Under the pieces are notes generated by a model. It had not been told where the DNA came from and did no database searches. It worked only from the letters and a program-made list of their open reading frames with translations. Of a stretch of DNA of 64,000 bases, positions 16,776 through 50,737 are shown one piece after another. Positions within the stretch are counted from its first letter, which is position 1; each line of letters starts with the position of its first letter. Source of the stretch: Flavobacterium lipolyticum (GTDB taxonomy: Bacteria; Bacteroidota; Bacteroidia; Flavobacteriales; Flavobacteriaceae); contig NZ_JAJJMN010000001.1 of the NCBI RefSeq assembly GCF_020905335.1, positions 3,038,001 through 3,102,000 on the forward strand. Reading direction: 5' to 3'. A program made the translations under genes and the position numbers.

Positions 16776-16863
16776 CTTTTGTTTTAATTATGAATTATAA
16801 ATTGTGAGTTGTGGGTTGTGGGTAGTTAAACTTAAATTTTATTTTAAAATTTAAGTTTAAGGG

Positions 16864-17113
16864 GAAACCTGAAACCTGAAACCTGAAACCTGAAACCTGA
16901 AACCTGAAACCTGAAACCTGAAACCTGAAACCTGAAACCTGAAACCTGAAACCTGAAACCTGAAACCTGAAACCTGAAACCTGAAACCTGAAACCTGAAA
17001 CCTGAAACCTGAAACCTGAAACCTGAAACCTGAAACCTGAAACCTGAAACCTGAAACCTGAAACCTGAAACCTGAAACCTGAAACCTGAAACCTGAAACC
17101 TGAAACCTGAAAC
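16864..17113. repeat. Perfect heptanucleotide tandem array, ~36 copies
   Basis: The unit GAAACCT (GGTTTCA on the minus strand) is repeated without a visible error for 250 bases, about 35.7 copies. It starts 89 bases upstream of the Rrf2 start and ends 4 bases short of the stop codon of the TPM-domain gene. On the minus strand the same array reads through an open frame as repeated FQVSGFR, which I regard as a by-product. Perfect identity implies recent expansion by slippage. Confidence 0.97.
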
Positions 17114-17116
17114 TGT

Positions 17117-17944
17117 TTACCAGCCTCCGCTAGAACCTCCTCCAGAGAAGCCTCCTCCGCCAAAACCTCCGCCAAAGCCACCTCCGCCTCCGGATGATCC
17201 TCCGCCGAAGCCTCCAAATCCGCCTCCGCCACTTCTTCCAAGATTGCTTAGAATGATGACATCGAGCAGGCTAGGACCACCACCTCCGCTATTATTGCCT
17301 GAATTACCTCCGCCGCCTCTTTTATTTCGGGACAGTAAAATTAATACAATTACGACAATTATAATAAAAGGCAGGATTGGAAAATCTTTTTCTTTGGTTT
17401 GTTTGCGCTCGCCTTTGAATTTTCCTTTAAAAACATCAATGATAGCATCTGTTCCTTTGTCAAGTCCGTTGTAAAAACTTCCGGCTTTGAATTCCGGAAT
17501 AATTATATTTCGGATGATTGTTCCGCCAATTCCGGCAGTCAATCGGTCTTCGAGACCATAACCGGGATTTATGGCAATTTTTTTCTCCTTTTTTGCCAGC
17601 AGGATAATAACACCATTGTCGTCTTTTGCAGTTCCTCCAATTCCCCAGGTTTGTCCCCATTTGGTTGCTAACTGACTTACATCTTCGCCTTTTAAACTTT
17701 CTATCGTAATCACTACAATTTGGGTAGTAGTCGAGTCAGAATAACGAATTAGTTTTTGTTCCAGCTGCGATTTTTCAGATGCATTTAAGATGTTGGCATA
17801 ATCGTAAACCGAAGTTTGTAAACTTGGTTTTTCAGGTATTGTAAATTGTGCAAAAATACTGTTGCAGGTAACAAGCGCGATAAACAAAAGAGTAAACTGA
17901 AAAATTCTGTTGGAATTTGAGATTTTGTATTTGGAAATTTTCAT
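17117..17944 (-). CDS. TPM-domain membrane protein (YgcG family) with Gly-rich tail
   Basis: The protein has 275 residues. A signal peptide or anchor (about 12-32) is followed by a TPM domain (about 38-165, SVYDYANILNASEKSQLEQKL, IVVITIESLKGEDVSQLATKWGQTWGIG, GVIILLAKKEKKIAINPGYGLED). A transmembrane helix (FIIIVVIVLILLS, about 193-205) and a glycine-rich tail follow. TPM domains are linked to photosystem repair in plants and have phosphatase-like folds; the bacterial role is unclear. It is the last gene of the LemA-TPM-TPM run, and its start is 3 bases from the preceding stop. The C-terminal Gly-rich coding DNA directly abuts the heptamer array. Confidence 0.9.
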   Translation of the reverse strand: MKISKYKISNSNRIFQFTLLFIALVTCNSIFAQFTIPEKPSLQTSVYDYANILNASEKSQLEQKLIRYSDSTTTQIVVITIESLKGEDVSQLATKWGQTWGIGGTAKDDNGVIILLAKKEKKIAINPGYGLEDRLTAGIGGTIIRNIIIPEFKAGSFYNGLDKGTDAIIDVFKGKFKGERKQTKEKDFPILPFIIIVVIVLILLSRNKRGGGGNSGNNSGGGGPSLLDVIILSNLGRSGGGGFGGFGGGSSGGGGGFGGGFGGGGFSGGGSSGGW

Positions 17945-49866: not shown

Positions 49867-49975
49867 AAAGATTAAATTGTTTTTTGCCACAGATTAAAGG
49901 ATTTAAAAAGATTTTTAATCTGTGAAAATCTTTGAAATCTAAAGCAAAATGTTTTGTACTATATTTTTTTTAAAT

Positions 49976-50041
49976 AAAAAAACCTCCCGTTTTGGGAGGT
50001 TTTATAAATTGTATTTTGTTTACTTATTTATACATTACCTC
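49976..50041 (-). promoter_or_regulatory. ilvA attenuator: terminator and competing antiterminator
   Basis: Read on the minus strand, ACCTCCC (50000-49994) and GGGAGGT (49988-49982) form a stem followed by a run of six or more T: an intrinsic terminator. Upstream, GAGGT (50041-50037) can pair with ACCTC (50000-49996), and ATAAAT (50031-50026) with ATTTAT (50009-50004). Together they form an alternative structure that uses the terminator's 5' arm, so the two folds exclude each other. The first antiterminator strand starts 4 bases after the leader stop codon. Confidence 0.85.
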
Positions 50042-50045
50042 GCCA

Positions 50046-50102
50046 TTATTGCTGAATTGCAATAATAGTAATAGCGATAATAATGTTATTTAAGTTTTTC
50101 AT
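50046..50102 (-). CDS. Isoleucine-rich leader peptide of ilvA
   Basis: ATG at 50102 opens an 18-codon peptide MKNLNNIIIAITIIAIQQ ending TAA at 50048-50046. Seven of 18 codons are isoleucine (ATT, ATT, ATC, ATT, ATT, ATT, ATT), clustered from codon 7 to 16, with Leu only once and no Val. This matches the end product of the pathway that the downstream enzyme begins. Stalling at Ile codons would leave the antiterminator strand free; completion would cover it. The reading frame is too short for ordinary gene finders. Confidence 0.88.
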   Translation of the reverse strand: MKNLNNIIIAITIIAIQQ

Positions 50103-50119
50103 TTCAGATAATTGAATCG

Positions 50120-50151
50120 CAAATGTATTAATTATTTTGAGAAGATTTCAA
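50120..50151 (-). promoter_or_regulatory. Promoter of the ilvA leader
   Basis: On the minus strand TTG (50151-50149), 21-base spacer, TACATTTG (50127-50120). The leader ATG is 17 bases farther downstream. Confidence 0.75.
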
Positions 50152-50197
50152 TAACTTTTTTTAGTTTTTGTAAAAAACTGAAAACAGAGACTGAAAA

Positions 50198-50737
50198 CTA
50201 CTTTTTAACCGGAGGGTATTGTGCCATAATTTTAGATACAAACTCGGCAACCTTTTCGTCTTTTTTAGCAACGTTTTTGGTTAGCGTTCCAACACCTTCT
50301 CCTTGCCAGATCATTTCTTTTTTCTTAGCATCAATCAAATCAATGAATAAAGTTCCTTCAGTAGAAGTAGAAACGGTAGTTTGGTTTCCTCCGTACATCA
50401 TGTAAGGATTCCATCCCCAACCCCAACCGTAACCCCAGCCAGCACTAAATTGATTTACATTGACTTGTTCTCTTGCTTTAGTAAAAATATTAACTAATAA
50501 ATCAGGGTTTTCGCTTTTGGTAAAACCTTTGGCCTGCATTTGATCATCGATGGCACGTAAAATACGTCTTTTATCCAAATCAGATATTTCAACCTTGTCA
50601 ATTCCGGGCTTGAAGAAAGCATACGTTTTGTAAGAGGCAAAATTTACGTTTTTGTCGTAATCAGAGTAAACGCTGACTGTGCTGCATGATGCTAGTATTA
50701 AAAGCAAAAAAACGGGTACTAATTTGAATGTTTTCAT
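50198..50737 (-). CDS. DUF4136-domain lipoprotein
   Basis: The protein has 179 residues. The lipoprotein signal (KTFKLVPVFLLLILASC, cysteine 18) is followed by a DUF4136 domain: VYSDYDKNVNFASYKTYAFF, KRRILRAIDDQMQAKGFTKSENPDLLVNIF, then a Gly/Trp/Tyr-rich insert (GWGYGWGWGWNPYMMYGG) and STEGTLFIDLIDAKKKEMIWQGEG. The family is common among Bacteroidota outer-membrane lipoproteins, with no known activity. The aromatic-glycine insert is typical. It seems to be a single-gene unit downstream of the hutU gene on the same strand (182-base gap with a repeat). Confidence 0.93.
   Translation of the reverse strand: MKTFKLVPVFLLLILASCSTVSVYSDYDKNVNFASYKTYAFFKPGIDKVEISDLDKRRILRAIDDQMQAKGFTKSENPDLLVNIFTKAREQVNVNQFSAGWGYGWGWGWNPYMMYGGNQTTVSTSTEGTLFIDLIDAKKKEMIWQGEGVGTLTKNVAKKDEKVAEFVSKIMAQYPPVKK

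Follow-up and report, generated by a model that had tools for sequence, protein, structure and literature searches.

Organization of the ilvA leader region

In the 64,000-nucleotide stretch of Flavobacterium lipolyticum DNA analysed here (the window), the threonine deaminase gene ilvA is separated from an upstream DUF4136 gene by a compact module comprising a promoter box, a short leader ORF, an antiterminator and an intrinsic terminator (Table 1). A first-pass annotation had described this module as an isoleucine attenuator, and each element claimed there (leader, antiterminator strands, terminator and T-run) is present at the coordinates of Table 1; the 18-residue leader with seven Ile codons is recovered as MKNLNNIIIAITIIAIQQ followed by a stop, and the GAGGT strand does begin 4 bases past that stop. 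The proposed antiterminator, GAGGT/ACCTC, exists but was drawn too short: a TGG/CCA pairing belongs to it as well, giving TGG[C]GAGGT with ACCTCCCA. The earlier description lacked a hairpin at the end of the leader, ATTATTGC/GCAATAAT, which was found by folding. Taken as a whole, the window leader folds far more stably than its shuffles (z -7.1), none of 200 being equally stable.

Table 1. Features of the probable ilvA attenuator module and its flanks (window coordinates)
Feature	Position	Strand	Remarks
ilvA attenuator module, overall	50127-49976	minus	promoter box, leader ORF, antiterminator, intrinsic terminator, then ilvA
DUF4136 gene upstream of module	50198-50737	minus	its end lies 46 bases before the TTG
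TTG, weak candidate -33 element	50151-50149	minus	21 bases before TACATTTG; not conserved
-7 promoter element TACATTTG (TAnnTTTG type)	50127-50120	minus	TAnnTTTG within 45 nt of leader ATG in 79/79
Leader peptide ORF MKNLNNIIIAITIIAIQQ, then stop	50102-50046	minus	18 codons, 7 Ile; ATG 50102, TAA 50048-50046
Predicted long protector helix, TCGCTATTA / TAATGGCGA	50077-50069 / 50048-50040	minus	from folding of window RNA
1:2 hairpin ATTATTGC-AATTCA-GCAATAAT, candidate pause hairpin	50066-50045	minus	spans last Ile codons and stop
Antiterminator strand 2, TGG[C]GAGGT	50045-50037	minus	GAGGT part 50041-50037
Inner antiterminator strand ATAAAT	50031-50026	minus	seen in sequence
ATTTAT, inner antiterminator partner of ATAAAT	50009-50004	minus	seen in sequence
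Strand 3 AACCTCCCA, common to antiterminator and terminator	50001-49993	minus	ACCTCCC part 50000-49994
Terminator strand 4 GGGAGGTT and T-run	49988-49976	minus	GGGAGGT 49988-49982; hairpin -12.8 kcal/mol
ilvA, threonine deaminase	49866-48622	minus	Pfam: PALP domain and Thr_dehydrat_C regulatory domain

Elsewhere in the window, a heptamer array (GAAACCT x 35.7, 100% matches) occupies positions 16864-17113 inside the minus-strand ORF 16795-17241 and is a candidate for length variation.

Conservation of the module

Throughout, "genus" denotes Flavobacterium and "family" Flavobacteriaceae, as inferred from the names at the ilvA loci. The first-pass annotation had named a lack of leader conservation among relatives as grounds for refutation; when this comparison was run on the best 80 of 142 ilvA loci from a scan of named genomes, the leader, its Ile codons and the terminator were found at 78 of the 80. 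F. johnsoniae (L037) carries the module. One exception (L001) is a contig that starts 121 bases before the ilvA match; at the other (L020, F. araucananum) ilvA has no leader and stands behind a serine-dehydratase-like gene, with neither ACCTCCC nor GGGAGGT on either strand of 13 kb, a natural case of ilvA without such an attenuator nearby. The antiterminator strands are kept in the alignment of ilvA leaders, and a covariance model of the module (R1) finds matches in 124/249 genus genomes.

The promoter originally proposed, TTG-N21-TACATTTG, survives in its -7 half only. TAnnTTTG is present in 79/79 sequences, but a comparable TTG, 16-26 bases upstream of it, occurs in just 21/79, so that the -33 part is without support from conservation and is ruled out as a conserved component. 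According to PMC6847099 the -33 motif is much less evident in F. johnsoniae promoters, with which a conserved -7 box lacking a conserved -33 TTG is in line. Transcription would start upstream of the leader, just after TACATTTG, leaving a very short predicted 5' end; no Shine-Dalgarno sequence is evident at the ilvA leader. The ATG is preceded by A at -1 and at -2 (77/79 each) and at -3 (57/79), adenine at -3 being described as favouring initiation (PMC6847099).

The distance from terminator to ilvA is highly variable, from about 20 to 555 nt, and often holds palindromic repeats. Imperfect palindromes (GCCACGAATT..AATTCGTGGC or GCCACAGATT..AATCTGTGGC) occur there in many relatives and, in the window, at 49867-49960. 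Seven loci (L017, L026, L032, L051, L064, L075 and L080) have a gap of only ~20-30 nt, and the palindromic element thus looks as if inserted at one place; a strict pattern, too strict to judge by, finds no copies of it in the window genome.

Coding behaviour and codon content of the leader

In the 79-row alignment A1 each gap within the leader ORF is a multiple of three, and the distance from its stop to strand 3 varies by single bases through every value from 41 to 46. Among 73 distinct ilvA leaders the ORF has 18 codons in 28 cases, 19 in 44 and 20 in one; it ends in TAA (60), TGA (8) or TAG (5), and substitutions are rarest at first codon positions. Gaps in threes, interchangeable stops and the codon-position pattern are what a translated ORF is expected to leave in an alignment.

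The enrichment in Ile is hard to ascribe to chance: with Ile as frequent as in 15 window genes, at least seven Ile in 17 codons would arise with a probability of about 8e-5. Counted from the conserved ATG, each leader has 6-9 Ile codons (78 loci among the best 80 of 142). Across the 73 genus leaders Ile accounts for 558 of 1287 codons and Val for 6, and Pfam identifies the gene as a threonine deaminase, which bears out the earlier proposal that the regulatory codons correspond to the pathway end product. Because ilvA serves isoleucine synthesis only, a leader specialized on Ile fits its product. The choice of Ile codon is also skewed: ATT 444, ATC 110 and ATA 4 of 558, with ATA making up 121 of 779 Ile codons in the 15 window genes. 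ATA is read by a different tRNA, and the ilvA leaders thus nearly avoid the Ile codon of another tRNA; we attach no p-value to this avoidance because the leader sequences are related. It is not general, as leaders upstream of ilvD elsewhere in the family (see below) use ATA for 20/168 Ile codons.

Competing folds and ribosome position

The claim that the two folds are mutually exclusive is supported by pairing energies, shuffles, strand swaps and a simulation of the window RNA. Antiterminator pairing in ilvA leaders averages -11.0 kcal/mol, compared with -4.8 for shuffles. Covariation within the genus is scant, with one compensatory cell in 1168; the genus varies too little for such a test, and family-wide leaders and strand swaps were used in its place. 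In both the ilvA and the family ilvD sets, strands 2 and 3 of the same leader pair better than shuffles and swaps. The family ilvD terminators fall into two types, CCTTCC (17/27) and CCTGTATC (9/27), each with its own matching strand 2; own pairs reach -10.8 and -11.2 kcal/mol, respectively, and drop to -7.6 and -4.7 with the strand 3 of the other type, the best evidence that two folds compete. The ilvA strand 2 likewise scores -11.0 with its own partner and -8.3 and -7.0 with strand 3 of the CCTTCC and CCTGTATC types. Gains are slight among leaders of ilvN-like genes (n=10; own -7.8, cross-swapped -6.9), and genus ilvD leaders (n=8) pair better than shuffles without gaining over swaps (own -7.9, cross-swapped -8.2).

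We modelled the ribosome as hiding the RNA from 18 nt before to 12 nt after the first base of the A-site codon. For a window transcript extended just through strand 3, the antiterminator is predicted to form with a probability of 0.97-0.99 wherever the A site falls between codons 3 and 17, and of 0.00 once it reaches codon 18 or the stop. Codon 16 is the last to specify Ile. The expected switch is predicted for 72/73 distinct ilvA leaders, and masking is also predicted to switch 15/27 family ilvD, 7/10 ilvN-like and 7/8 genus ilvD leaders. The two window hairpins are close in energy (terminator -12.8, antiterminator -12.0 kcal/mol), and once strand 4 is present the terminator prevails at equilibrium (P at least 0.99) in all six ribosome positions modelled; the decision must therefore be kinetic, made during transcription.

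Folding of the window RNA in the absence of a ribosome traps strand 2 in an extended helix with the first part of the leader (P 0.72), and the antiterminator is nearly absent (0.01). Strand 3 is free under these conditions in 6/73 ilvA, 5/27 family ilvD, 1/10 ilvN-like and 6/8 genus ilvD leaders. With 6/73, we reject a protector helix common to ilvA leaders at large, and the folding leaves one as a possibility for the clade of the window; default termination without translation by means of such a helix is not part of every known attenuator.

The leader-end hairpin is better kept, 99.3% of its cells being paired in the 73 distinct sequences. One change is compensatory (T-A to C-G in L027), and the others are one-sided and mostly preserve pairing. 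The stretch tested exceeds its shuffles in stability (z below -2) in 72/73 ilvA, 12/27 family ilvD, 1/10 ilvN-like and 0/8 genus ilvD leaders. A T-G step lies 11 nt past the end of the hairpin, a spacing that recalls the hairpin pauses of enterobacterial leaders.

Leaders upstream of ilvD and ilvN-like genes

Of 106 genomes outside the genus that list both genes, 103 have ilvA on the strand of ilvD and 2.5-9 kb downstream of it, and in the three exceptions (G043, G079, G221) the two are on different contigs. At L144, genes resembling ilvE, ilvD, ilvB, ilvN, ilvC and ilvA (named by resemblance) stand in a row. The model R1 matches at E 0.1 or better in 63/249 family genomes, and 18 of the 61 outside the genus have it 5.7-7.4 kb upstream of ilvA, a position that precedes the ilv operon. 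Many other matches outside the genus are probably due to chance, among L111-L140 several including L133, L134, L136 and L138; L121, L129 and L139 could not be judged as leaders, and L226, L227 and L230 (of 20 R1 regions) are not leaders.

A sequence-blind detector, which looks for a short ORF rich in I, L and V plus a terminator in the DNA before ilvD, proposes candidates at 28/68 family loci, which were the best-scoring ilvD matches and no random draw, and none at the other 40/68; it finds 3/68 on the opposite strand and 0/340 in shuffles. In a set of 31 ilvD loci, candidates number 14/31, or 11/31 at an unrounded cut of 3.4, a level at which the opposite strand (0/31), downstream DNA (0/31) and shuffles (0/155) yield nothing and 6/168 window tiles are positive, representing three ORFs, one of them the ilvA leader. 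L315 (90 bases only) was left out before counting, as was L345, a doubtful leader whose removal left 27 family ilvD leaders.

Codon content follows the position of the leader. The family ilvD leaders have 168 Ile and 68 Val in 550 codons, and the eight genus ilvD leaders 52 and 35 in 189. In the window genome, ilvD is on another contig with a leader of its own, MQISIIITISVIIVNVIITYARGMV. Ten Flavobacterium genomes (L211-L216, L218, L220, L221, L224) carry an Ile-rich leader (77 Ile, 3 Val in 175 codons in total) and a terminator upstream of an ilvN-like ACT-domain gene. By its sequence this gene is a paralogue of the acetolactate synthase small subunit (the L211 protein scores 75 bits against TIGR00119, cut-off 56.9), and in 3/10 (L216, L218, L220) it directly precedes an ilvA-like gene behind one leader; in the window genome the only match to the ilvN-like protein is the ilvN of the ilv operon. 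The genus ilvD and ilvN-like sets were mostly picked from R1 matches and are thus biased to similarity; L222, an ilvA leader, was placed in neither. One reading of the codon and position pattern is that the ilvA leader derives from an operon leader.

Leaders upstream of other operons

Leaders of the same design also precede other amino acid operons of the window genome: a His leader, MISNQLHHHHFHYCSQAMC, with a terminator before hisG (G000:C2 ~731961; L305 position 1962) and a Trp leader, MKTIMNNTWWWKNLRETS, with a terminator before trpE (G000:C1; L309 position 1278). Judged from sequence, the ilvA leader is one of several and no lone case. Beyond the family, eight of 35 stretches before ilvD (L265-L299), counted without a shuffle or opposite-strand control, hold plausible leaders (L265, L272, L277, L281, L284, L285, L290, L291), with the terminator more than 1 kb from ilvD and other genes between in L265, L277 and L281; a further 30 such loci (L231-L260), likewise without these controls, gave one poor candidate and nothing else. 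No thr operon leader was found near homoserine dehydrogenase matches, in stretches that may miss the start of fused-enzyme genes.

At L308, position 2651-2817 (G000:C1 near 2426650), a leader that closes with RICVCVC and a stop, followed by a terminator, is possibly Cys-sensing; by resemblance, the genes behind it include homoserine-acetyltransferase-like and aspartokinase/homoserine dehydrogenase-like ones. L127 (G031:C21:71058-71186, minus strand) has a leader that by eye is rich in Phe and Tyr codons (MINLIRWNTFFYFYFYFRDRNGSVM) and a terminator, and may be of the Phe type.

Leaders in which Asn codons predominate (7-10 Asn of 14-15, as in MKNNNNNNNFNNPNF) are present at 19/30 GatA-like loci (L352-L381), with none on the opposite strand (0/30) and none within 1500 nt at the other 11/30. 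They lie mostly ~290-320 nt before gatA and have a strand 2, GGAAGGTT or similar, and a terminator such as GCCTTCC..GGAAGGC. In the five loci inspected, a gene of 88-89 codons, itself with an Asn run, lies between leader and gatA; its product matches GatC in Pfam at 21.5 bits, below the cut-off of 23, and the GatA-like proteins score ~430 bits against the TIGR00132 cut-off of 481. The arrangement resembles an attenuator by which a transamidation operon would sense Asn-tRNA; a literature search found no report of an Asn leader before gatC-gatA.

A model for attenuation and its alternatives

The components and how they are conserved, the way the leader behaves as coding sequence, the mutually exclusive pairing and the geometry, all established by sequence and comparison, very probably amount to a ribosome-mediated (leader-peptide) transcription attenuator through which the availability of charged tRNA-Ile governs ilvA expression. 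The first-pass annotation had proposed just such control; it is supported by conservation at 78/80 loci (the best 80 of 142) and by the switch modelled in the window and in 72/73 leaders. We posit that transcription begins just after TACATTTG and that a ribosome, loading on a short 5' end rich in A, starts to translate the 18 codons of the leader, and that the leader-end hairpin may hold the polymerase until the ribosome arrives. When Ile-tRNA is scarce, the ribosome would stall on one of the seven Ile codons, leaving strand 2 (TGGCGAGGT) free to capture the emerging strand 3 (ACCTCCCA) and allowing read-through into ilvA. When Ile-tRNA is ample, the ribosome would reach the last codon or the stop and cover strand 2, strand 3 would pair with strand 4, and transcription would end at the T-run. 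In this scheme we infer the pause, the coupling in vivo and the isoleucine response, and for Bacteroidota we assume transcription-translation coupling.

The hairpin might instead be the ordinary terminator of the DUF4136 gene, and the small ORF an accident. Between the end of that gene and the TTG are 46 bases, and there are several relatives (e.g., L003, L004) in which the last codons of the upstream gene, judged by eye, reach the promoter box, so that the hairpin could also terminate its transcript. As an account of the whole module this is extremely unlikely, for it leaves unexplained the promoter box between gene and terminator in 79/79, the indels in threes, the Ile codons and strand 2, along with the leaders that match their operons elsewhere (Ile/Val, His and Trp). 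Sequence does not distinguish codon reading of charged tRNA-Ile from arrest by a nascent leader peptide that responds to free isoleucine or some other small molecule, and an Ile-rich peptide core is kept across the genus. We consider peptide sensing decidedly improbable: the peptide is short, the residues past its last Ile vary freely (QQ, EQ, KQ, TQ, GQ, LQ, QH, QR), and the leaders of ilvN-like genes, ilvD, hisG and trpE have, by eye, no evident common motif beyond the amino acids of their pathways.

A terminator/antiterminator pair alone would suit a T-box, a riboswitch or an RNA-binding-protein antiterminator just as well, and to a device of this kind we give next to no credence. The masking geometry fits a ribosome, and at the Rfam gathering score the whole window contains one tRNA and no riboswitch, T-box or leader family; no T-box match appears up to E 5 in 49870-50200. 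The sub-threshold matches in this interval are led by Phe_leader, which reaches 32 of 55 bits and, on the opposite strand, 31.3; Trp_leader (21.1 of 41 bits) and Thr_leader (20.2 of 55), also below gathering, are probably there by chance.

Relation to known attenuators

Leader-peptide attenuators control the enterobacterial ilvGMEDA, trp, his, thr and phe operons. The ilvA module shares with them a promoter, a short leader enriched in end-product codons, an antiterminator overlapping the terminator and ribosome position as the sensor. It differs in belonging to another sequence family (below gathering of Phe_leader RF01859, Trp_leader RF00513 and Thr_leader RF00506), in serving one gene with Ile codons only, in its very short predicted 5' end with no evident Shine-Dalgarno sequence, and in a strand 2 that begins at the leader stop or just after. 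The ilvD-operon leaders of other family genera have the same leader, strand 2 near the stop and terminator, and in 12/27 the leader-end hairpin, but they contain Ile and Val codons, precede an ilvD...ilvA operon and have different terminator sequences.

In print, attenuation in flavobacteria is already proposed in general terms: PMC9723704 describes strong clues for leader-peptide attenuation upstream of amino acid operons of F. psychrophilum, before pheA and hisG among others, and names these elements as lacking Rfam matches. The likeness to the ilvA module extends to the genus and to leader peptides before amino acid biosynthesis operons; ilvA is unnamed in the attenuation section of that paper, and "ilva" and "isoleucine" occur 0 times in its main text, supplement aside. 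Staphylococcus aureus offers leader-peptide control of branched-chain genes outside the enterobacteria (PMC5794164), though in another phylum, with a Leu-rich attenuator peptide and beside CodY. Bacteroides sORFs are described as reminiscent of leader peptides (PMC7366714), and a 2010 comparative attenuation study by Lopatovskaya and others, cited in PMC4833913, may include related cases. In the open-licence literature searched, we found no paper on an ilvA isoleucine leader in Bacteroidota. The design is known; what is new is the ilvA member, its codon specialization and the breadth across a group in which attenuation is hardly studied.

Implications

We lean toward the view that attenuation is standard for amino acid synthesis in Flavobacterium and many non-Bacteroidales Bacteroidota, with leaders that became specialized when ilvA separated, reading Ile and Val before ilvD and Ile before ilvA and ilvN-like genes, and with a similar, mostly Asn leader before gatC-gatA elsewhere in the family. 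The codon patterns suggest that a regulator switched specificity by codon swaps after its gene had left an operon. A covariance model of the ilvA module is now at hand, and whether transcription and translation are coupled in this phylum becomes a matter for a reporter experiment in the tractable lab species F. johnsoniae. If attenuation is indeed standard there, tight coupling of transcription to translation would exist in a phylum whose initiation does without Shine-Dalgarno sequences.
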